64,000 bases of DNA, taken from assembly GCF_013364155.1 (NCBI RefSeq), contig NZ_CP054916.1, positions 8,896,001 to 8,960,000 on the forward strand, written 5' to 3'. The notes below the pieces were generated by a model. It was given only the letters and a program-made list of their open reading frames with translations. It was not told the DNA's origin and made no database searches. This DNA comes from Streptomyces sp. NA02950 (GTDB taxonomy: Bacteria > Actinomycetota > Actinomycetes > Streptomycetales > Streptomycetaceae). Positions 44,074-57,277 of the stretch are shown here, in pieces (the first letter of the stretch is position 1; the number at the start of each line of letters is the position of its first letter). Made by a program: the position numbers and the translations under genes.

Positions 44074-45078
44074 ATGCAGGCATGGCGAGTGCACGACAAT
44101 GGCGAGCCGCGCGAGGTCATGCGCCTGGCGGACGTGCCCGATCCGGTGGCGGGGCGGGGACAGCTGCTGGTGCGGGTCCTGGGTGTCAACGTCAACTTCC
44201 CCGACGCCCTGCTGTGCCGCGGCCAGTACCAGGTCCGGCCGCCGCTGCCGTTCACCCCGGGCGTCGAACTGTGCGGTGAGGTCGTCGCCGTCGGCGAGGG
44301 CGCCGAGGGCGAGGTGGGCTCCCGGGTCCTGGCCACCCCCACCCTGCCGTCGGGCGGCTTCGCCGAGCTGGTCGCCGTGGACGCGGCGAACGCGCTCCCC
44401 GCCCCCGACGCCCTCGATGACGCGGAGGCCGCGGCGCTGCACATCGGCTACCAGACCGGCTGGTTCGGTCTGCACCGCCGGGCCCGGCTGCAATCAGGAG
44501 AAACCCTGCTGGTGCACGCCGCCGCGGGCGGGGTGGGCACCGCCGCCGTCCAGCTCGGCAAGGCGGCCGGCGCCCGGGTCATCGGCGTCGTCGGCGGCGC
44601 GGACAAGGTGCGAGTCGCCCGTGAACTGGGCTGCGACCTCGTCCTCGACCGCCGCGAGGACGACATCGTGGCCGCGGTCAAGGAGGCCACCGGCGGACGC
44701 GGCGCCGATGTGATCTACGACCCGGTCGGCGGCGACGCCTTCGCCAAGTCCGTCAAGTGCGTGGCCTTCGAGGGCCGCATCGTGGTCGTCGGATTCGCCA
44801 GCGGCGTCGTCCCGCAGGCCGCCCTCAACCACGCCCTGGTCAAGAACTACGCCATCCTCGGCCTCCACTGGGGCCTGTACAACACCAAGGACCCGGCCGC
44901 CGTCCGCTCCTGCCACGACGAACTGACCAAGCTGGCCGCCCAGGGCACCGTACGGCCCCTGGTCAGCGAGCGGGTGCCGCTCGCTGGCGCGGCCGAAGCC
45001 GTCCAGCGCGTCGCCGACGGCGTCACCACCGGCCGTGTGGTCGTCGTCCCCGGCCTGGCGACGGGAGGGGCCCGATGA
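44074..45078 (+). CDS. NADPH:quinone oxidoreductase-like MDR protein
   Basis: A 334-residue medium-chain dehydrogenase/reductase lacking zinc ligands. The N-terminal domain has NFPDALLCRGQYQVRPPLPF and PGVELCGEV. The Rossmann motif LLVHAAAGGVGTAAVQL and YDPVGGDAF follow. It belongs with the QOR/acryloyl-CoA- and enoyl-reductase-like group that uses NADPH on quinones or activated double bonds. ATG 44074 has GGAGG seven bases upstream. It overlaps the next gene by four bases (ATGA), so it is the head of an operon with two acyl-CoA dehydrogenases. This arrangement, reminiscent of the mycobacterial fadB4-fadE loci, suggests an enoyl- or acyl-CoA step. Confidence 0.85.
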   Translation: MQAWRVHDNGEPREVMRLADVPDPVAGRGQLLVRVLGVNVNFPDALLCRGQYQVRPPLPFTPGVELCGEVVAVGEGAEGEVGSRVLATPTLPSGGFAELVAVDAANALPAPDALDDAEAAALHIGYQTGWFGLHRRARLQSGETLLVHAAAGGVGTAAVQLGKAAGARVIGVVGGADKVRVARELGCDLVLDRREDDIVAAVKEATGGRGADVIYDPVGGDAFAKSVKCVAFEGRIVVVGFASGVVPQAALNHALVKNYAILGLHWGLYNTKDPAAVRSCHDELTKLAAQGTVRPLVSERVPLAGAAEAVQRVADGVTTGRVVVVPGLATGGAR

Positions 45079-46280
45079 CCACCGCCCGGGACCGGACCGC
45101 CGTGGACGCCCCCGAACTGCGCCGCCGCGTCCGCGCACTCCTCGACGCCCACCCCCCGGCCGGCACCGACCGGCTGGACTTCCTGCGGGCCCGCTTCGAC
45201 GCCGGACTCGCCTGGGTGCACTACCCGGTCGGCCTCGGCGGCCTGGACGCCCCGCGCTCCCTCCAGTCCGTCGTGGACGCCGAACTCGAGGCCGCCGGCG
45301 CACCCGACAACGACCCCCGCCGCATCGGTATCGGCCTGGGCATGGCCGCCCCCACCATCCTCGGCTTCGGCACCGACGAGCAGCGCACCCGACTGCTGCG
45401 CCCGCTGTGGACCGGCGAGGAGGTGTGGTGCCAGCTGTTCAGCGAGCCCGGCGCCGGATCGGACCTCGCGGCCCTCGGCACCCGCGCCGTACGCGACGGC
45501 GACACCTGGGTGGTAGACGGCCAGAAGGTGTGGACCTCCAGCGCGCATATCGCCCGCTGGGCCATCCTCATCGCCCGCACCGACCCCGATCTGCCCAAGC
45601 ACCGCGGCATCACCTACTTCATCTGCGATATGACCGACCCTGGTGTCGAGGTGCGGCCCCTGCGGCAGATCACCGGTGAGGCGGAGTTCAACGAGGTCTT
45701 CCTCACCGGCGTGCGCATCCCCGACAGCCGCCGCCTCGGCGAGATCGGCGAGGGCTGGCGGGTCGCCCAGACCACCTTGATGAACGAGCGGGTCGCCATC
45801 GGCGGCGGCCGCGTCCCCCGCGAGGGCGGCATGATCGGCCTGGTCGCCGGGACCTGGCGCGAGCGGCCCGAGCTGCGCACGCACGATCTCCACCAGCGGC
45901 TGCTGCGGCTGTGGACGGACGCCGAGGCGGCCCGGCTGGCGAGCGAACGGCTGCGCCAGCAGCTCGCGCTCGGCCAGCCCGGCCCGGAGGGCTCGGCCAT
46001 GAAGCTCGCCTTCTCCCACCTCAACCAGCGGCTCAGCGCGCTGGAGGTCGAAATGCTGGGGGAGGAGGGGCTGAGTTACGACGACTGGACGCTGCGCCGC
46101 CCCGAACACGTCGACTTCACCGGCCGCGACGCCGGCTACCGCTATCTGCGGGCCAAGGGCAACTCCATCGAGGGCGGCACCTCGGAGGTGCTGCTCAACA
46201 TCATCGCCGAACGCGTCCTGGGCCTGCCGCCCGAGCCGCGGACCGACAAGGACGTCGCGTGGAAGGACCTGCCCCGATGA
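45075..46280 (+). CDS. Acyl-CoA dehydrogenase, large partner
   Basis: A 401-residue acyl-CoA dehydrogenase with CQLFSEPGAGSDLAAL, WVVDGQKVWTSSAH (FAD-side loops), EGWRVAQTTLMNER and the C-terminal GNSIEGGTSEVLLNIIAERVLGLP. The last block carries the Glu of the IEGG segment at the position of the catalytic base in canonical enzymes. It oxidises an acyl-CoA to the 2-enoyl-CoA, passing electrons to ETF. ATG 45075 overlaps the upstream stop, and the gene overlaps the next by four bases. Adjacent to a second, dissimilar ACAD gene, it is likely one subunit of a heteromeric enzyme, as known for bulky steroid or branched substrates in actinobacteria. Confidence 0.88.
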   Translation: MTTARDRTAVDAPELRRRVRALLDAHPPAGTDRLDFLRARFDAGLAWVHYPVGLGGLDAPRSLQSVVDAELEAAGAPDNDPRRIGIGLGMAAPTILGFGTDEQRTRLLRPLWTGEEVWCQLFSEPGAGSDLAALGTRAVRDGDTWVVDGQKVWTSSAHIARWAILIARTDPDLPKHRGITYFICDMTDPGVEVRPLRQITGEAEFNEVFLTGVRIPDSRRLGEIGEGWRVAQTTLMNERVAIGGGRVPREGGMIGLVAGTWRERPELRTHDLHQRLLRLWTDAEAARLASERLRQQLALGQPGPEGSAMKLAFSHLNQRLSALEVEMLGEEGLSYDDWTLRRPEHVDFTGRDAGYRYLRAKGNSIEGGTSEVLLNIIAERVLGLPPEPRTDKDVAWKDLPR

Positions 46281-47626: not shown

Positions 47627-47821
47627 ATGGCCATTTCCATCTCCGTGGTCCTGCTGCTTCTGATCCTGGCGGTGGTCTTTCTGCGCAGCGGCGGACTGCG
47701 CATCTCCCATGCCCTGGTCTGTGTGACGCTCGGCTTCTACCTGGCCAGCAGCAGTGTGGCGCCCACCATTTCCGAAGGGCTCGCCGCCACAGCGGACGTG
47801 GTCAGCAGCGTTCGCCCCTGA
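47627..47821 (+). CDS. Small membrane protein next to the encapsulins
   Basis: A 64-residue protein starting at ATG 47627 with GAGGAGG six bases upstream. Two hydrophobic stretches, about residues 3-18 (ISISVVLLLLILAVVF) and 29-45, could span the membrane, with a polar tail (SEGLAATADVVSSVRP). I do not recognise a characterised family, but the good ribosome site and clean hydrophobic pattern make it a real gene. It is convergent with the first encapsulin gene, only 28 bp between stops. Any functional link to the shell proteins is conjecture. Confidence 0.7.
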   Translation: MAISISVVLLLLILAVVFLRSGGLRISHALVCVTLGFYLASSSVAPTISEGLAATADVVSSVRP

Positions 47822-47849
47822 CCCGCGCCCGCGGCGACCGCGGCACCGC

Positions 47850-49238
47850 TCAGCGGCCGATCTCGACGTCCTCCAGAACACCCAGCGCGTCAGGCACCAG
47901 AATCGCCGCCGAGTAGTAGACGCTGACCAGATACGACGTCATGGCCTGCTCGCTGATGCCCATGAACCGGACGTTCAGACTGGGCTCGTACTCATCGGGG
48001 ATCCCGGTCTGGTGGAGGCCGATGACGCCCTGGCTCTCCTCCCCGGTGCGCATCGCCAGGATGGAGCTGGTGCCGGACTCGCTGACCGGGATCTTGTTGC
48101 ACGGCAGCAGCGGCACCCCGCGCCAGGCCCGCACCGCCACCCCGTGGACCTCGGTGCCCTGCGGATACAGGCCCCGGCTGCTGCACTCCCGCCCGAACGC
48201 CGCGATGGTCCGCGGATGGGCCAGCAGAAACTGCGTCTTGCGGCGTCGCGTCAGCAGTTCGTCGAGGTCGTCGGGGGTGGGCGGGCCGCTGCGGGTGTGG
48301 ATGCGCTGGGACAGATCCGCATGGTGCAGCAGACCGAACTCCCGGTTGTTGACGAGCTCGTGCTCCTGGCGCTCGCGCAGCGCCTCGATGGTCAGCCGGA
48401 GCTGCTGCTCGACCTGGTCCATGGGGTCGCTGTAGAGATCCGCGACCCGGGTGTGGACCCGCAGCACGGTCTGGGCCACGCTCAGCTCGTACTCCCGCGG
48501 ACTCAGCTCGTACTCGGCGAACGTCCCCGGCAGCACCGGCTCGCCCGAGTGGCCCGAGGCGATCGCGATATCGGCCTCGCCGCGCCGGTTCCGCGCGGGC
48601 TCCGGCCGGTTCTCCCGGTCCTCGAGATGGCCGCGCAGCGCCTCGGAGCGGTCGGCCGCCTCCTGGAAGGCACGGCGGGGGAGGGTGAGCACCGTGGTGC
48701 GGGTGACCGCCCGGACGGTGAAGTCCCAGGTATGCTCCGGGCCGGTGAGCACGGGGTCGCCGAAGTACTCCCCGTCGGCCAGCACCGCGAGCGCCGTATC
48801 GGTGTCATAGGCGCCGGGGGCGATCTGCCGGACCTTGCCATGGGCGATGAGATACACCTGATCGGCCGGGCGGCCGGCCTCGACCAGCACATCCCCGGGC
48901 GCGTACTCCCGCTGGACACAGGCGTCGGCCAGCGACTCCAGCACGGCGGTGTCCGAGAAGCCGCGCAGCGTCGGCAGCTCACCCAACTCCGGCGGGATGA
49001 CCCGCACCCGCGACCCGGTGGAGACGAACTCCACCCGCCCGTCACCGACCGTGTAGCTCAGCCGCCGGTTCACCCGGTAGGTGCCGGCCGACACCTGCAC
49101 CCAGGGCAGGATCCGCAGCAGCCACCGCGACGAGATGGCCTGCATCTGCGGAACGGACTTGGTCGTGGTCGCCAGATTCCGTGCGGCGGCCGTGCCCAGG
49201 CTCAGCGGCTGCTCATCGGACTCCACGGAAGTGGTCAT
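47850..49238 (-). CDS. Family 2B encapsulin shell protein (EshA-like), copy 1
   Basis: A 462-residue HK97-fold shell protein. [20 protein letters not shown] begins the N-arm. Residues about 85-205 hold an inserted cyclic-nucleotide-binding-like domain ([41 protein letters not shown]). From about 225 on the shell domains follow ([57 protein letters not shown]). The phosphate-binding cassette has YFGDP and lacks the usual Arg, so true cNMP binding is doubtful. Family 2B encapsulins assemble into protein compartments, in Streptomyces often around terpene-synthesis enzymes; the related EshA affects aerial growth and antibiotics. Second gene of a tandem pair, 71 bp behind copy 2, with a weak ribosome site. 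No cargo enzyme is nearby. Confidence 0.88.
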
Positions 49239-49309
49239 CTGTGCTCATCACTCATTTCGGTAGGTATTCGGGAACGTATGCGAGGGGCACCGGAAGGTAT
49301 GGCGGGCCG

Positions 49310-50722
49310 TCAGAGGCCGATTTCCACGTTCTCCAGGATTCCGAGCGCGTCCGGGACCAGAACGGCCGCGGAATAGTAGGCACTGACGAGATACGAGATG
49401 ATGGCCTGCTCGCTGATTCCCATGAACCGCACGGAGAGGCTCGGCTGGTATTCATCGGGAATTCCGGTCCGATGCAGCCCGATCACCCCCTGGTTCTCCT
49501 CGCCGGTGCGCAGCGCGAGAACGGAGGTGACCCCGCTGCGGGTCACCGGGATCTTGTTGCACGGGAAAATGGGCACCCCGCGCCACGCGGGCACCGCATG
49601 ACCGTTCACCTCCACGCTCTGCGGGGAGATGCCACGGTTGTTGAACTCCCGGCCGATCGCGGCGATGGCGCGCGGATGCGCGAGGATCAGCCCCGGGTCC
49701 TTCCACACGGTGGCCAGCAGGGAGTCGAGGTCGTCGGGGGTGGGCGGGCCGCCGCGGGTGTGAATGCGCTGGGACAGATCCGCGTTGTGCAGCAGACCGA
49801 TCCGGGGGTTGTTGACGAGCTCGTGCTCCTGGCGCTCCCGCAGCGCCTCGATGGTCAGCCGGAGCTGCTGCTCGACCTGGTTCATCGGGTCGTTGTACAG
49901 GTCGGCGACCCGGGTGTGGACCCGCAGCACGGTCTGGGCCACGCTCAGCTCGTACTCGCGGGGCGCGAGCTCGTACTCGGCGAACGTCCCCGGCAGCACG
50001 GGCTCGCCCGCATGGCCGGAGGACAGCTCGATGGACGCCTCGCCGTGCTCGTTGGCCGGGGCCTTCGGTGCCGCGCGCACCGCCTCCACATGCTCCCGCA
50101 GCGCCCCCGAGCGGTCCATCTGCTCCTCGAACTCCTGGCGGGAGAGCGCCAGGACGGTGCAGGAGGTGACCGCCTTGACGGTGACGCCCCAGGTGCAGCC
50201 CTCTGCCGAGGCCAGCTCCCGCTCGCCGAGGTGGTCACCGCCCGCGGCCGTGCCGACCACCGAGGGATCGTCGAAGGCACCCTCGGCCAGCTTGTCGACC
50301 TTGCCGTGGGCGATCAGATACAGCTCGTCGGCCGGACGCCCGGCCTCCACCAGCACCTCGCCGGGAGCCAGCTCCCGCTGGGTGAACCGGTTCGCCAGCG
50401 CCTCGAGGACATCGGTGTCCTCGAAGCCGCGGAGCAGCGGAAGCTCCCGCAGCTCGACCGGAATGACCCGGACCTCGGCACCGGTGGTGGTGAATTCCAC
50501 CCGGCCGTCCCCGAGCGTGTGCGAGGCACGCCGGTTCACCCGGTAGGTGCCGCCCGGCACATGCACCCACGACAGCATGCGCAGCAGCCATCGCGAGGAA
50601 ATTCCCTGCATCTGCGGAACGGACTTGGTCGTCGTCGCCAGATTCCGTGCGGCGGCCGTGCCGAGACTCGACAGCGGCTGCGAATCGTCGGTACCGGAAC
50701 CCCGTTCAACGGACGTCGTCAT
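49310..50722 (-). CDS. Family 2B encapsulin shell protein (EshA-like), copy 2
   Basis: A 470-residue paralogue of the next gene, roughly two-thirds or more identical by eye. It is best conserved in the shell parts ([70 protein letters not shown]) and more divergent in the cNMP-binding-like insert at about 92-212. Its length equals that remembered for S. griseus EshA (about 470). ATG 50722 has GGTGGGTGAG upstream. It is promoter-proximal, so probably made in equal or greater amount than copy 1; two-component shells built from both proteins have been described for Streptomyces. Cytoplasmic. No terpene cyclase or methyltransferase cargo lies in the window. Confidence 0.88.
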
Positions 50723-51091: not shown

Positions 51092-51955
51092 ATGGAACGC
51101 CGTACGCGCCGCGCCTTTGTCGTCACCCTCGGAGCCGCCGTGGCGGGCGGTGTGGCCACCCCCGCCTTCGCCGGTACGACGGCCACCCGCAGGCCCGCAC
51201 CGCCGCTGGCCAGAGCCCACGCGCACAACGACTACGAGCACCCCCGCCCGCTCACCGACGCGCTCTCCCACGGCTTCGGCAGCGTCGAGGCCGACATCTG
51301 GCTGGTGGACGGCGCGCTGCTGGTCGCCCACGACGCCACCGACCTGGACCCCGCCCGGACCCTCGAAGCGCTCTACCTCGACCCGCTGGCCCGGCGGGTG
51401 AAGGCCAATGGAGGCCGCGTCTACCGCGGTTACGACCTCTCCCTCCAGCTCCTGATCGACCTCAAGACCCCGGGCGAGGCCACCTACCGCGCACTCGCCC
51501 ACCGGCTGCGCCGCTACGGCCCGATGTTCAGCGCCGCCTATGGCGGGGTCGGCGGCCGGGTGCGCCGCGGCCCGGTGACCGCCGTCATCTCCGGCGACCG
51601 CGGCGCACGCGCCCCCATGGAGGCCGAGAAGGTGCGACACGCCTTCTACGACGGACGTCTGGAGGACCTCGGTACCGGGGTGCCCGCCTCCTTCATCCCG
51701 CTCGTCAGCGCCGACTGGAACAAGACCTTCACCTGGCAGGGCGCGGGCGCCATGCCACCGGCGGAGCGGGAGAAGCTGCGGCAGATCGCCGGCGCCGCGC
51801 ACCGCGCCGGCCAGCGGGTGCGCTTCTGGGCCACGCCCGACGCGGCGGGGCCGGAGCGCGACGCGCTGTGGCGCGAACTGCTGGCCGCCGACGTCGACTA
51901 CCTCAACACCGACGATCTCGCGGGCCTGGAGGACTTCCTGCGCCGTGCCTCCTGA
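51092..51955 (+). CDS. Exported PLC/GDPD-like phosphodiesterase
   Basis: A 287-residue protein with a Tat-like signal peptide (MERRTRRAFVVTLGAAVAGG, cleaved after AFA). The mature part has RAHAHNDYEHPRPL, GFGSVEADIWLVDG and VAHD, the His/Glu/Asp set of the phosphatidylinositol PLC/glycerophosphodiesterase TIM barrel; it also resembles the AIM6-like branch. LLIDLKTPG and the C-terminal FWATPDAAGPERDALW and DYLNTDDL complete the fold. Probably hydrolyses phosphodiesters outside the cell. ATG 51092 has GGGAGG upstream. Diverges from the encapsulin genes; nothing ties their functions together. Confidence 0.82.
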   Translation: MERRTRRAFVVTLGAAVAGGVATPAFAGTTATRRPAPPLARAHAHNDYEHPRPLTDALSHGFGSVEADIWLVDGALLVAHDATDLDPARTLEALYLDPLARRVKANGGRVYRGYDLSLQLLIDLKTPGEATYRALAHRLRRYGPMFSAAYGGVGGRVRRGPVTAVISGDRGARAPMEAEKVRHAFYDGRLEDLGTGVPASFIPLVSADWNKTFTWQGAGAMPPAEREKLRQIAGAAHRAGQRVRFWATPDAAGPERDALWRELLAADVDYLNTDDLAGLEDFLRRAS

Positions 51956-52021: not shown

Positions 52022-52509
52022 ATGCTCATCAGGACCGCCACCCCCGAGGACTGGCCGGCGATCTGGCCCATTCTGCACCGCGTCGTCGCCGAGGGAGAGA
52101 CCTACACCTATCCGCGCGACCTCGACGAGGACCGGGCCCGCGACCTCTGGATGCTCGAACCCCCAGCCGTACCGTCGTCGCCACCGACCCGGACGGCACC
52201 GTGCTCGGCACGGCCACGATGAACCCCAACCACATGGGCCCCGGTTCGCATATCGCGAACGCCAGCTTCATGGTGGCGCCCGAGCACGCCGGGCGCGGCA
52301 TCGGACGAGCCCTGGGCGAACACGTCCTGGAGTGGGCGCGGGCCGAGGGCTACCGGGGCATGCAGTTCAACGCCGTCGTGGAGAGCAACACCCAGGCGGT
52401 CTCGCTGTGGCGTTCGCTGGGCTTCGAGGTGGTGGGCACCGTCCCGGAGGCGTTCGAGCATCCGACGAAGGGACGTGTCGGGCTGCACATCATGCACCGG
52501 TACCTGTGA
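52022..52509 (+). pseudogene. GNAT N-acetyltransferase with a one-base frameshift
   Basis: The first frame (ATG 52022) encodes MLIRTATPEDWPAIWPILHRV to DLWMLEP. The rest of the enzyme is in another frame: TVVATDPDGTVLGTATMNPN, the acetyl-CoA loop VAPEHAGRGIGRALGE, and SLWRSLGFEVVGTVPEAF, ending TGA 52509. The switch is at the run of five C at 52160-52164. One more C would restore a continuous 162-residue protein reading LEPPSRTVVA. So this is either a homopolymer sequencing error or a recent inactivation. Without it, the product is a normal phosphinothricin/small-molecule acetyltransferase-like GNAT. Its stop overlaps the next start (GTGA). Confidence 0.7.
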
Positions 52510-53264
52510 GCGCCGCCGGACCACCGGGCCCGGCCGTCGAACCGTTCGGCCCCGAGCGGCTCGACGCGGCCGCCGCACTGCTCGCCGCCCGGCACCGTCG
52601 CGCCCGGCGGCGGGAACCGGCCCTCGACGGGCGCCACACCACCCGCGCGGCGTGTGTGTCCCTCCTGCGCCGGGCCCGGGACGACGGCGCGCGGTGCGGT
52701 CGCCCTCCGCGGCGGTGCGGTGGCGGGCTGTCTGCTGGCCCGGACCGGCCGCCGAGCGGTGTCCGTCGCGCGGACCCCTCGGACATCGACGCCCTCGAGC
52801 CGCCGCGCGGCCTCGTCAACGCCGCCCACACGGCCCCGCCCGTCTTCGCCTTCGCCGACCAGCCGATGTGGGACGTCCTGCGCTCCGGCCATCCGGAGCT
52901 GCTGAGCGACCCGGAGGTCGCGTACTGGGTCGCCGAGGGAAGCGGAGGTGTCGACGGCTTCATCGTCATGCGCCCGGTCCCGGCGGGAGAGTCCTCGCTC
53001 CTCAAGCCCCAAGGATCGCTGGAACTGCTGCTGGCCGCCACCGCCCCGCACGCCCGCGGCTCCGGGGTCGGAACCCTTCTGACCCGATGGGCACTGACGG
53101 ACGCGGCACGGCGGGGGTTCACCGTCTGCGCCACTGACTGGCGGGCGGCCAATCCGCTGGCCTCCGTCTTCTGGCCGCACCGGGGCTTCCGCCCGGCCGC
53201 CCACCGGCTGCACCGCATCCTGGGCCCGCGGCTCACCGGCCCGGAGCACATCACGGGGCCTTGA
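52506..53264 (+). CDS. GNAT acetyltransferase, probably with two compensating frameshifts
   Basis: A 252-codon frame from GTG 52506, coupled to the previous gene. The second half is a clear GNAT domain: LELLLAATAPHARGSGVGTLLTRWALTDA, then ATDWRAANPLASVFWPHRGF. Between about 52690 and 52780 the frame reads an unlikely Arg/Gly/Pro-rich stretch (GRPPRRCGGGLSAGPDRPPSG). A neighbouring frame there encodes a sensible beta-strand segment, GAVALRGGAVAGCLLARTG, which suggests one shift out and one back. The final 14 bp overlap the end of the convergent ROK gene. Substrate unknown; the enzyme may be inactive as written. Confidence 0.6.
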   Translation: MSAAGPPGPAVEPFGPERLDAAAALLAARHRRARRREPALDGRHTTRAACVSLLRRARDDGARCGRPPRRCGGGLSAGPDRPPSGVRRADPSDIDALEPPRGLVNAAHTAPPVFAFADQPMWDVLRSGHPELLSDPEVAYWVAEGSGGVDGFIVMRPVPAGESSLLKPQGSLELLLAATAPHARGSGVGTLLTRWALTDAARRGFTVCATDWRAANPLASVFWPHRGFRPAAHRLHRILGPRLTGPEHITGP

Positions 53265-54474
53265 ACGCCGAGGGATCGTCGAGGACCGCCTGGACGACGG
53301 AGTGGGCGGCACCGAGCAGCGGGCCCTCCGCGCCCAGGAGGGAGACGGTGACCATCTCCCGGCCGGGCCGGGCCGGGTCCGCCACCCGCCGCCCCAGTTC
53401 CTTTTCGAGGGCGGGCAGCAGCCAGGGCGCCAGCGGGGTCAGCGCCCCGCCGAGCACCACCTTCTGCGGGTCCAGCAGGTTCACCGTGCCCGCGAGCGCG
53501 ATACCGAGGGCCGCGCCCGCCTCGCGCAGCGCGCGACGCACCCGGCGGTCGCCCGCGGCGGCCCGCACCGCCAGCAGGGCGATCCGGCCGCCGGGGCCGG
53601 GATGTTCGGCGTCGGCCTGCTCGGGGGAGAGGCCGCTCGCCCGCAGCACCGCCTCCTCGCCCGCGTAACGCTCCAGACAGCCGCGTCCGCCGCACGGGCA
53701 CTCGGGCCCCTCGGGGCGTACCGGCACATGGCCCAGCTCGCCCGCGAAACCGTGTGTGCCGCGGAGCAGTTGTCCGTCGAGCACCACCGCGGCACCGATG
53801 CCGATCTCGGCCGAGACATGGACGAAGTCACGGGGCACCGGGTCGTGGCCGCCGCGCCACAGCTCGGCGAGCGCGCCCACGTTGGCCTCGTTGCCGACGG
53901 TCAGGGGGAGGCCGGGCAGCTCGGCGCGGAGTCCCGGGCCGATGTCCACGCCCTCCCAGCCGAGGTTGGGGGCGCGGACGACGAGGGACGACTCACGGGC
54001 CACCAGACCGGGCACCGCCACGGTCAGCCCCACCGGCCGCAGCCCCGCGCCCTCCGCGTCGGCTGCCACCTGCCGTACCAGGTCGGCCAGTTGGCCGAGG
54101 ACGGGTTCCGGGGCGCGGTCCCGGTTCGCCGCGGCGATCTCCGTCCGGGCCCGTATCCGCCCGCGCAGGTCCACCGCGCAGACCGCCAGCCGGTCCACCC
54201 CGATCTCCGCGCCGAGTCCGGCCGGACCGCGCTCGTTCAGCTGGAGCGCGCTGCCGGGGCGGCCGACCGTACCGGGCCAGGAGGGGCCCAGTTCGACCAG
54301 CTGCCCGTCCCTGATCAGCTCGTCGACGAGGGTCGAGACCGCGGCCCGGGTCAGCCCGACCTCACCGGCGACGGCCGCGCGGGACAGCGGGCCCCGCGCG
54401 GCCACGGTGTGCAGGACGAGGGACAGATTGCGCCGGCGCATCGCCTGTTGGGTGTGGGGCAGTGGCGGTGCCAC
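53251..54474 (-). CDS. ROK-family transcriptional repressor (XylR-like)
   Basis: A 407-residue ROK protein. Residues about 10-70 form a winged HTH (LSRAAVAGEVGLTRAAVSTLVDELI). The sugar-kinase-like domain has GAEIGVDRLAVCAVDL, VSAEIGIGAAVV, GELGHVPV and the zinc loop CPCGGRGCLERYAG. Such proteins repress sugar genes until the sugar binds. It starts at GTG 54474 with GAGGAG upstream and lies 27 bp after xylB on the same strand, so it probably regulates the xylB/xylA region, like Bacillus XylR. Length normal; sites intact. Confidence 0.88.
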   Translation of the reverse strand: MAPPLPHTQQAMRRRNLSLVLHTVAARGPLSRAAVAGEVGLTRAAVSTLVDELIRDGQLVELGPSWPGTVGRPGSALQLNERGPAGLGAEIGVDRLAVCAVDLRGRIRARTEIAAANRDRAPEPVLGQLADLVRQVAADAEGAGLRPVGLTVAVPGLVARESSLVVRAPNLGWEGVDIGPGLRAELPGLPLTVGNEANVGALAELWRGGHDPVPRDFVHVSAEIGIGAAVVLDGQLLRGTHGFAGELGHVPVRPEGPECPCGGRGCLERYAGEEAVLRASGLSPEQADAEHPGPGGRIALLAVRAAAGDRRVRRALREAGAALGIALAGTVNLLDPQKVVLGGALTPLAPWLLPALEKELGRRVADPARPGREMVTVSLLGAEGPLLGAAHSVVQAVLDDPSAFKAP

Positions 54475-54501: not shown

Positions 54502-55956
54502 TCAGGTCCGGTGGAGCAGACCGTCGGCGTCGGACAGCACCCCCGCGACACGCTCCAGCGTCGCTTCGTCGCGCGGCACCGCATCGTAGGACGGCCCCTG
54601 TGCCGTCGCCCAGCGCCGGGCCACCGCCGCCGGGTCCTCCCCCAGCAGCAGCCCGGCGGCCTGGGCCGCGGCGCCGAGGGCGACCAACTCCTGGGCGCGC
54701 GGCACCTGCACGGGACGGCCGCTCAGCCTCCGCACCGTCTCCCGCCATGCCGTGCCCTTGGCGCCGCCGCCGATGAGCAGCAGCGGCGCATCGGACGAGT
54801 TCTCGCCGTACAGCACCCGGTCCAGCGCGGTGAGCAGGGCGAACACGGCGCCGTCATAGGCGGCTTGGAGCACCTGGCCGGGCGTCGTGTCATGGCGCAG
54901 CCCGTGCAGCAGACCGGACGCCCGCGGCAGATGCGGGGTGCGCTCGCCGTCCAGGAAGGGGAGCAGTACGGCCGAGCCGCCCGGCTCCACCGCCTCCCGC
55001 TCCCGGCCGAGCAGCGCCGCGATCCGGTCCACCGCCAGTGTGCAGTTGAGGGTGCAGGCGAGCGGCAGCCAGGCGTCACGGGCGTCGGCGAACCCCGCGA
55101 CCACCCCGGTGGGGTCGGCGGGCCGGTGCGCCGAGACCGCGTACACGGTGCCGGAAGTCCCCAGGCTCAGCACCGGCTGCCCCGGGCGCAGCCCGAGTCC
55201 GAGGGCGGCGGCCATGTTGTCGCCCGTGCCGGTGGCCACCAGGGCGCCGCTGGGGAGGGAGAGGTCCGGGAGGTCCCGTACGGTCCCGGCGGCCTCGCCG
55301 TGGCGCAGTACCCGCGGCAGCAGCTCCGGCGACAGCCCCGCCCGCTCGAGAATGTCCTCGTCGTACGCCTCGGTCGCCGACGCCCACCAGCCGGTGCCCG
55401 AGGCATCCCCGCGGTCGGTCGCGCCGTGACCGGTCAGCCGCTCGGTGAGGTAGTCGTGGGGGAGGCGTACGGCCGCGGTGGCACGCGCCGCCTCCGGTTC
55501 GTTCTCCCTGAGCCAGGCCCACTTGGTGACGGTGAACGCGGGCGCGGGCACACTGCCGATCCGCTCCGCCCACGCCTTCGGACCGCCCAGCTCCGCCACC
55601 AGCCGGTCGCGCTGCGGGGCCGAGCGCACGTCGTTCCACAGCAGCGCGGGCCGCACCGAACGGCCGGAGGCGTCCAGGGTGACCAGACCGTGCTGCTGGC
55701 CGCCGACGGAGACCGCGGCCGCCTCGTGGGCGGGGGCCCCGCACTGGCGCAGCGCTTCGGCCAGCGCCTCCCACCACTGCTCCGGCACGGACTCCTTGCC
55801 GGTGCCGTCGGTGCCGCCGGTGACGGTGTGCGGGGCCTGTCCGCGTGCGACGACCCGCCCCGTCGCGGAGTCGACGACCAGTGCCTTGGTCGACTGCGTG
55901 GAGCTGTCCACGCCGACGACCAGCGGTCCTTCCGGCACGGGCACGGCTGCTGCCAT
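54502..55956 (-). CDS. xylB: Xylulokinase
   Basis: A 484-residue FGGY kinase with VGVDSSTQSTKALVVD at the N-terminus, VSVGGQQHGLVTLD, RPALLWNDVRSA, GTGDNMAAALGLG, LSLGTSGTVYAVS and LLLIGGGAKGTAWRE: xylulokinase rather than glycerol kinase features. It phosphorylates D-xylulose for the pentose phosphate pathway. ATG 55956 has GGGAGGG seven bases upstream. Divergent from xylA with a 148-bp shared control region, and followed by the ROK repressor gene. Confidence 0.93.
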   Translation of the reverse strand: MAAAVPVPEGPLVVGVDSSTQSTKALVVDSATGRVVARGQAPHTVTGGTDGTGKESVPEQWWEALAEALRQCGAPAHEAAAVSVGGQQHGLVTLDASGRSVRPALLWNDVRSAPQRDRLVAELGGPKAWAERIGSVPAPAFTVTKWAWLRENEPEAARATAAVRLPHDYLTERLTGHGATDRGDASGTGWWASATEAYDEDILERAGLSPELLPRVLRHGEAAGTVRDLPDLSLPSGALVATGTGDNMAAALGLGLRPGQPVLSLGTSGTVYAVSAHRPADPTGVVAGFADARDAWLPLACTLNCTLAVDRIAALLGREREAVEPGGSAVLLPFLDGERTPHLPRASGLLHGLRHDTTPGQVLQAAYDGAVFALLTALDRVLYGENSSDAPLLLIGGGAKGTAWRETVRRLSGRPVQVPRAQELVALGAAAQAAGLLLGEDPAAVARRWATAQGPSYDAVPRDEATLERVAGVLSDADGLLHRT

Positions 55957-56104: not shown

Positions 56105-57277
56105 ATGAGCTACATCCCCACCCCCGAGGACAGGTTCACCTTCGGCCTCTGGACCGTCGGCTGGCAGGGCCGGGACCCGTTCGGCGACGCCACCCGCCCG
56201 GTGCTCGACCCCGTTGGGGCGGTGACCCGGCTCGCCGAACTCGGCGCCTGGGGCGTCACGTTCCACGACGACGACCTGATCCCCCACGGCGCGCCGGAGG
56301 CCGAGCGCGAAGCCCGCGTCAAACGCTTCCGGCAGGCCCTGGAGGCCACCGGTATGACCGTGCCCATGGCCACCACCAACCTCTTCACCCATCCGGTCTT
56401 CAAGGACGGCGCCTTCACCGCCAACGATCGGGACGTACGCCGGTACGCCCTGCGCAAGACTTTCCGCAACATCGACCTCGCCGTCGAGCTGGGCGCCACG
56501 ACCTATGTTGCCTGGGGCGGGCGCGAGGGCGCGGAGTCCGGCGCCGCCAAGGACGTACGCGCCGCGCTGGACCGGATGAAGGAGGCGTTCGACCTGCTCG
56601 GCGCGTATGTCACCGAGCAGGGCTACGATCTGCGTTTCGCCATCGAGCCCAAGCCGAACGAGCCGCGCGGCGACATCCTGCTGCCGACCGTCGGCCACGC
56701 CCTGGCCTTCATCGAGAGGCTGGAGCGGCCGGGGCTGTTCGGGGTGAACCCGGAGGTCGGCCACGAGCAGATGGCCGGGCTGAACTTCCCGCACGGCATC
56801 GCCCAGGCCCTGTGGGCGGACAAGCTCTTCCACATCGACCTCAACGGCCAGTCGGGCATCAAGTACGACCAGGACCTGCGCTTCGGCGCGGGCGATCTGC
56901 GGGCGGCCTTCTGGCTCGTCGACCTCCTGGAGACGGCCGGATACCGGGGCCCGCGCCACTTCGACTTCAAGCCGCCGCGCACCGAGGACATCGAGGGCGT
57001 CTGGGCCTCCGCCGCCGGGTGCATGCGGAACTACCTGATCCTGAAGGAGCGGGCCGCGGCCTTCCGCGCCGACCCCGAGGTCCAGCAGGCGCTGCGCGCC
57101 TCCCGCCTGGACCAGCTGTCCCGGCCCACCCTCGACGCGGGCGAGACCCCGGCAGCCCTGCTCACGGACCGTTCCGCCTTCGAGGAGTTCGACCTCGAGG
57201 CGGCCGCCTCACGTGGTATGGCCTTCGAACGCCTCGACCAGCTGGCCATGGACCACCTGTTGGGGGCACGCGGCTGA
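56105..57277 (+). CDS. xylA: Xylose isomerase
   Basis: A 390-residue xylose isomerase of the short (class I) actinobacterial type. [31 protein letters not shown] (catalytic His), [42 protein letters not shown] and [16 protein letters not shown] supply the metal and substrate residues. It converts D-xylose to D-xylulose (and glucose to fructose). ATG 56105 has GAGGGAG five bases upstream. Divergent from xylB. Length is typical of Streptomyces enzymes (about 388). Confidence 0.97.

Follow-up and report, generated by a model that had tools for sequence, protein, structure and literature searches.

The 64,000-nucleotide stretch of Streptomyces sp. NA02950 DNA analyzed here (hereafter, the window) carries two adjacent genes for Family 2B encapsulin shell proteins, Enc1 and Enc2, and, a few kilobases upstream, a block of xylose genes that includes the xylulokinase gene xylB. 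We propose that Enc1 and Enc2 would form one mixed shell, that xylulokinase would be a bystander of the pair, and that the main cargo would be a bifunctional geosmin synthase encoded in trans, elsewhere on the same chromosome; we put the probability of this reading, which is built on sequence comparison, at roughly 0.4.

Enc1 and Enc2 are a two-component Family 2B shell pair

Enc1 (470 residues; 49310..50722, minus strand) lies upstream of Enc2 (462 residues; 47850..49238, minus strand), with a spacing of 71 bp between the two genes. Both proteins match the shell family PF19307 (449 bits for Enc1 and 460 bits for Enc2, cut-off 22.8), and both carry, between the two shell parts, the E-loop insertion that characterizes Family 2B, namely a cyclic nucleotide monophosphate (cNMP)-binding-like insert matching PF00027 (cut-off 27.5), which spans residues 116-204 of Enc1 (50111..50377, minus strand; 51.5 bits) and residues 110-197 of Enc2 (48648..48911, minus strand; 58.2 bits). 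Consistent with this, Enc1 and Enc2 score 755.6 and 778 bits, respectively, against the NCBIfam equivalog NF041163 (encap_f2b), far above its cut-off of 400, and their closest PDB matches are 9bje (706 bits) and 9bix (690.5 bits), which are the S. lydicus Enc1 and Enc2 models (PMC12407261). The same paper describes motif 1 as diagnostic, with TVWK in Enc1 versus RRRK in Enc2; in our alignment, the upstream protein has TVWK (49700..49711, minus strand) and the downstream protein has RRRK (48237..48248, minus strand), which, together with shell genes less than 10 kb apart, is the arrangement of two-component Family 2B systems. The pair is thus a known kind of two-part Family 2B compartment, nearest to S. 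lydicus Enc1/Enc2, for which closed-shell assembly has been demonstrated with Enc2 and with Enc1 plus Enc2 (PMC12407261).

These results bear out the initial annotation of this DNA, which had described tandem HK97-type paralogs of Family 2B with a cyclic-nucleotide-binding-like insert, conserved in the shell parts and divergent in the insert: sequence identity between Enc1 and Enc2 is 80% in the N-terminal and 77% in the C-terminal part of the shell, compared with 54% in the insert. The canonical cyclic-nucleotide phosphate-binding cassette contains an Arg, and this Arg is absent from the phosphate-binding stretch of both inserts when read by eye, as had also been reported. The further suggestion that the insert may sense something other than cyclic AMP agrees with the missing Arg but is not new, since PMC12407261, citing its reference 35, already states that the 2B insert does not bind cyclic nucleotides and that some other ligand is possible.

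An unlinked geosmin synthase carries the targeting tag

A search of the genome with Terpene_syn_C_2 gave five matched stretches, two of which correspond to the two halves of a single bifunctional cyclase at 4.859-4.861 Mb, a geosmin synthase encoded about 4 million bases from the pair; the cyclase loci L119 and L121 lack a tag motif of the kind described next. Its C-terminus, GPTGLGTSAARIPLPAGARP, carries the targeting consensus GPTGLGTSAAR, which has been published for GS-like cargo as a tag located both between the domains and at the C-terminus (PMC8346489); a weaker copy, GAGGLGVSAAD, indeed lies between the two domains. Moreover, the enzyme passes NF041168 (family 2 encapsulin nanocompartment cargo protein terpene cyclase). 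The tag motif was also sought in the genome DNA, where (i) GPxGLGT has nine matches, two of them inside terpene cyclases (geosmin synthase and 2-methylisoborneol [2-MIB] synthase; frames read by eye), and (ii) GLGTxAAR has three matches, one of them within geosmin synthase. The 20 kb surrounding the geosmin synthase gene of this strain (L152) contain no shell match.

The second tagged cyclase belongs to another shell. The genome holds three shell genes, the third being a single one at 7.84 Mb (G000:C1:7842038-7842784; L004:7178-11211), 1.1 Mb from the pair, and it is followed by the genes for 2-MIB synthase (NF041167, 507 bits, cut-off 400) and then for geranyl diphosphate methyltransferase (NF041943, 481 bits). 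Its closest PDB match is 9bhu (838 bits), one of three entries (9BHU, 9BHV, and 9BI0) that we take to be the S. griseus 2-MIB shell. Neither 2-MIB synthase nor the methyltransferase lies beside the Enc1/Enc2 pair; both adjoin the third shell instead. We consider it improbable that 2-MIB synthase is a shared cargo that enters the two-component shell besides its own: its N-terminal part does contain GPSGLGTAS, and NF041167 identifies it as encapsulin cargo, but it has its own linked shell, and four of the 20 pair genomes searched (G029, G055, G084, and G146) lack a 2-MIB synthase match at E ≤ 1e-10, so that this enzyme cannot be the general cargo of the pair. The initial annotation had reasoned that a tagged terpene cyclase/methyltransferase pair encoded elsewhere and co-purifying with the shell would make this an ordinary relocated cargo system; the first half of that scenario holds, in that a tagged 2-MIB synthase and its methyltransferase exist elsewhere in the genome. 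Its broader alternative, cargo encoded elsewhere, emerges as the likeliest branch, except that the best-fitting tag carrier is geosmin synthase and not the 2-MIB enzymes.

The tag resembles the N-arm of the shell proteins

The N-arms of Enc1 (50645..50668, minus strand) and Enc2 (49179..49202, minus strand) both contain SLGTAAAR, which resembles GLGTSAAR of the cargo tag. A strict N-arm pattern (SL; any of G, S, D, N, or E; TAAA; R or K) occurs in 122 of 215 shells. When a tag profile built from linked cargo tags was run over the same shells, its best place was the N-arm in 183 of the 215 (the shells being related, not independent), with a median best score of 5.3 bits in real shells versus -2.8 bits in shuffled ones; among the shells of this genome, it scored 12.2 bits on Enc2, 7.7 bits on Enc1, and 1.2 bits on the 2-MIB shell. 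In the S. lydicus structures, an ordered N-arm is seen in some Enc1 subunits but not in Enc2 (PMC12407261). Because of the resemblance between tag and N-arm, we propose the N-arm site as the place of the tag, i.e., tag and N-arm may share one site. Encapsulins and geosmin synthase are treated together in PMC8346489, but among the listings and abstract openings searched, which leave subscription papers and preprints outside, we saw no mention of such a shared site.

Distribution of the tag and of tandem shells across Streptomyces

The geosmin synthase tail was read in 141 of the 197 Streptomyces genomes with a geosmin synthase match. This sample is not random: it consists of the known tandem-shell genomes, the 30 with the best scores, and otherwise mainly genomes in which the end of the alignment was ambiguous. 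Because it omits most of those with an alignment ending short of the tail, untagged enzymes are under-counted. The tag profile, which did not exceed 5.2 bits on any of 152 shuffled tails, was applied with a threshold of 10 bits. A tail tag was present in 31 of the 32 tandem-shell genomes versus 57 of the 109 others (Fisher p 7e-7, kinship ignored), and thresholds from 8 to 20 bits gave 31 to 28 of 32 versus 57 to 48 of 109. When just the 20 genomes with the xylulokinase-type (XK) locus were counted as having the pair, the tag was found in 19 of 20 versus 69 of 121 (kinship likewise ignored). The single tandem genome without a tail tag, G033, has the inter-domain tag. The 32 tandem genomes include G142, in which partial matches on separate contigs suggest a pair, and 11 with tandem shells at other places; two of these 11, G035 and G148, appeared in only one of two match listings, and so further tandem genomes may hide among the 109. 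Mapped onto the tree of geosmin synthases, the tag shows five changes and the pair seven.

Several observations arose alongside these counts. The C-terminal tag is missing from the geosmin synthases of 53 of the 141 genomes, which form two large clades plus a few single genomes, and a GTSAAD-like inter-domain motif often remains where it is missing. A programmed stop read-through of the tail was considered, as several genomes showed one TGA with the alignment continuing, and was rejected, since no tag lies beyond the stop in L170 and L171, the first two such tails read; the extension was therefore taken as spurious. An in-frame TGA also occurs in one tandem shell gene of each of two genomes (G035:C45:110220-111602 and G148:C5:67820-69196).

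Related shells and their linked cyclases

Shell trees were built from 215 shells, with a more careful tree of 72 shells on shell columns only. In the latter, the Streptomyces Enc2 clade comprises 18 rows (support 99/97) and takes in the shells of L105, L103, and L157. In L105, a bifunctional GS-like cyclase is encoded between Enc1 and Enc2, and in L103 and L157, single shells lie directly beside a homolog that is 75-76% identical to the geosmin synthase of this strain. Furthermore, many tandem loci outside the clade of the window have a linked bifunctional GS-like cyclase with the same kind of tag (some without a match to the pattern). Geosmin synthase is a partner of several shell types. The single Streptomyces Family 2B shells directly beside geosmin synthase (L103, L157, L322, and L328, in G172, G080, G041, and G196, respectively) fall at three places in the tree, namely in the Enc2 clade, beside the 2-MIB shells, and among the polyprenyl-synthetase shells. 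In G046 (L160:8498-14600), genes for a shell, 2-MIB synthase, the methyltransferase, and geosmin synthase follow one another on one strand.

The Streptomyces single shells that adjoin a polyprenyl synthetase or 2-MIB synthase fall in another clade (98/98). A rival possibility is that an unlinked cargo of a different kind fills the Enc1/Enc2 shell, either a polyprenyl synthetase or some enzyme whose tag is not recognized. A polyprenyl synthetase match lies within 3.5 kb at 32 of 38 sampled Streptomyces single-shell loci (one example Pfam-checked), and such cargo has no known targeting motif (PMC8346489), so that a motif search would miss it. Against this, no polyprenyl synthetase lies within 3.5 kb of any window-type pair locus, where the labels are XK or none, and the polyprenyl-synthetase shells of Streptomyces are a separate clade; we regard this alternative as unlikely, though worth keeping in view. 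The window-type pair loci also yielded no terpene cyclase open reading frame (ORF), and this, together with the missing polyprenyl synthetase, would suit a cargo-less or relic compartment that has been retained for another use. Against this, the two shell genes are both open and gene-like in codon-position composition and have kept the Enc1 and Enc2 motifs, and we give the idea little credence.

Weighing geosmin synthase as the cargo

A number of points weigh against geosmin synthase as the main cargo of the pair. Its NF041168 score, 1208 bits, is barely above the cut-off of 1200, and in number the tag motifs in the genome DNA fare no better than reversed controls (nine versus seven matches for GPxGLGT; three versus three for GLGTxAAR). 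A geosmin synthase match is present in 197 of 200 Streptomyces genomes, the majority of which lack the pair, and the tail tag is likewise common in its absence, as the 57 of 109 pair-less genomes read attest. The link between tag and pair follows clades, with 2-3 independent contrasts on supported branches and seven on all branches, which provides neither significance nor power. Geosmin synthase also adjoins shells of the other clade (G041, G196, and G046) and is therefore not pair-specific. Finally, the maximum of the tag profile on shuffled shells, 11.2 bits, is higher than both the median real score and the score of Enc1 itself. Taken together, the association between tag and pair is compatible with geosmin synthase as cargo, without being proof of it.

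Xylulokinase appears to be a positional bystander

Xylulokinase is the published candidate cargo for systems of this type. PMC8346489 lists 124 'XK' systems, each of them from a Streptomyces and with two shells, and PMC12407261 also classes such systems as XK, while this 2025 structure paper states that the native cargo of XK-type two-component encapsulins is undetermined. The window has the corresponding operon content, i.e., xylB with a xylose regulator and xylA nearby: a ROK-family, XylR-like regulator (53251..54474, minus strand; PF00480, 165 bits), XylB (54502..55956, minus strand; TIGR01312, 460 bits, cut-off 380), and the xylose isomerase XylA (56105..57277, plus strand; TIGR02631, 719 bits, cut-off 447) form a block 2.5-6.6 kb upstream of Enc1. 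The claim of the initial annotation that no cargo is visible thus stands for the immediate flank, but it overlooked xylulokinase, although we argue that this enzyme is a bystander.

Between the pair and the xylose block lie two genes on the opposite strand, one for a GDPD-like phosphodiesterase (51092..51955, plus strand; PF13653, 38.6 bits, cut-off 27), which is probably exported, as its N-terminus resembles that of exported proteins, and one for a GNAT acetyltransferase (52022-52509). Because these genes intervene, no shared transcript of the pair with xylB is expected. The acetyltransferase gene seems to be frameshifted, its first ~48 codons being in another frame than the rest; relatives including L010 and L093 have it open, and the window has either a real loss or a sequencing error. 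On the other side of the pair is a 64-residue membrane protein, TM64 (47627..47821, plus strand), followed outward by an acyl-CoA dehydrogenase ORF (44757-46280); these two and the phosphodiesterase are the neighbors that had been named from the sequence, and all three are present. TM64 has no Pfam or NCBIfam match, but its family was matched in 200 of 200 Streptomyces genomes, for which reason we rejected it as a component of the compartment and used it as a place marker only.

Relatives of Enc1 were collected at 100 loci (80 from named genomes, among the matches listed, and 20 by handle), and 37 Streptomyces-type pair loci without exact repeats were compared from these and the window. The locus markers of the window are shown by 30 of the 37, whereas six show none and one ends at a contig edge. 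Among the 30 window-type loci, TM64 is present in 27, a phosphodiester glycosidase in 25, and XylB, within 10 kb, in 21. The phosphodiester glycosidase (PF09992), a steady neighbor of the pair that lies upstream of Enc1 or downstream of Enc2, is missing from the window; where relatives encode it between the GDPD gene and Enc1, it was considered as cargo and rejected on account of its exported-type start and its absence here. The nine loci without XylB belong to the S. netropsis/klenkii/mashuensis group (eight) and to G016, and all nine retain the pair, TM64, and the GDPD gene. Genome-wide, with seven candidates scored per genome, the best xylB match is distant in the pair genomes G016, G033, and G057 (E values of 6.0e-75, 1.2e-78, and 1.7e-75, respectively), compared with 7.5e-223 or better in the other 17.

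The order of xylB and TM64 is the same without the pair. The two genes are convergent in 15 of 15 pair genomes compared (20 pair genomes in all) and, identically, in 50 of 50 pair-less Streptomyces with both genes within 250 kb. Both genes were among the matches listed in 97 genomes, on different contigs in 27; in 55 pair-less genomes, the best matches to TM64 and xylB share a contig, and they lie no more than 250 kb apart in 50 of these, 60 kb in 35, and 12 kb in 15. The non-convergent cases are two pair-less genomes with the genes megabases apart. In these comparisons, the best match serves as a proxy for orthology, there being ~4 TM64 family members per genome, and for pair-less genomes, the comparison of the interval between TM64 and xylB used coordinates. 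Most simply read, the pair lies within an old block that also contains the xylose genes.

We therefore weighed the published proposal that xylulokinase is the true cargo, in a compartment for xylose use, against this comparison. The proposal can point to the XK classing in both papers, to xylB within 10 kb at 21 of 30 window-type loci, to S. lydicus-like loci (e.g., L073 and L091) in which xylB, xylR, Enc1, and Enc2 are co-directional, and to a possible switch of cargo in the XylB-less clade. What speaks against it is (i) the same xylB-TM64 order without the pair, (ii) the distant best xylB matches in three pair genomes, (iii) the opposite-strand GDPD-like gene and broken acetyltransferase gene that split the pair from the xylose block, and (iv) the structure of the enzyme: the kinase domain of XylB begins at residue 13, and the protein therefore has no long N-terminal extension, in keeping with the statement in PMC8346489 that XKs, unlike other cargo types, lack consistent disordered stretches. 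A cargo role for xylulokinase now seems quite unlikely; it looks like a positional bystander, and the comparative evidence for this is new here.

Proposed mechanism and comparison with known systems

In the mechanism that we favor, Enc1 and Enc2 would co-assemble into one mixed Family 2B shell, as published for their S. lydicus orthologs, and the geosmin synthase encoded at ~4.86 Mb would be its main cargo. The geosmin synthase tail, GPTGLGTSAARI, and the weaker copy between the domains would attach to the inside of the shell wall, where the tag would bind a site that the N-arm of Enc1 can occupy and that Enc2 leaves empty, so that the number of cargo sites would be fixed by the Enc1:Enc2 ratio. 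The strongest form of this proposal, in which the XK class is a synteny artifact, geosmin synthase is loaded in trans through a tag that mimics the N-arm, Enc1 and Enc2 jointly set the cargo sites, and geosmin synthesis is compartmentalized, strikes us as doubtful as a whole.

If xylulokinase is a bystander, the published operon class no longer has a foundation, and cargo should be sought among unlinked genes. Should geosmin synthase be the cargo, a well-known bacterial odor enzyme, the source of the smell of soil, would operate within a protein compartment in these Streptomyces, with megabases between the genes for cargo and shell, a situation that neighborhood-based cargo prediction misses. 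The resemblance between N-arm and tag would offer both a concrete loading site and a reason for having two shell proteins.

Among known systems, the XK-type compartment of S. lydicus (Sl-Enc1/Sl-Enc2; PDB 9BJE and 9BIX; PMC12407261) shares with the window the Enc1-Enc2 order, the TVWK and RRRK motifs, the insert, and nearby xylose genes, but the window differs in the opposite-strand GDPD-like and acetyltransferase genes that separate the pair from the xylose block. The 2-MIB shell (PDB 9BHU, 9BHV, and 9BI0) is also of Family 2B and has a close relative in this very genome, the third shell described above; unlike the pair, it is a single shell with linked cargo and falls in a separate clade. 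The third comparison is with the geoA-cnb-cnb operon reported from cyanobacteria and Deltaproteobacteria (PMC7251104). In the cyanobacterial and myxobacterial loci that we inspected, two shells follow a bifunctional cyclase, which in most cases bears GPTGLGTSAAR-like tags, and judging from these loci, the cnb genes seem to encode Family 2B shells in tandem. In that operon, geosmin synthase and the two cnb genes are encoded together, whereas in the genome of the window, geosmin synthase is unlinked from the Enc1/Enc2 pair.

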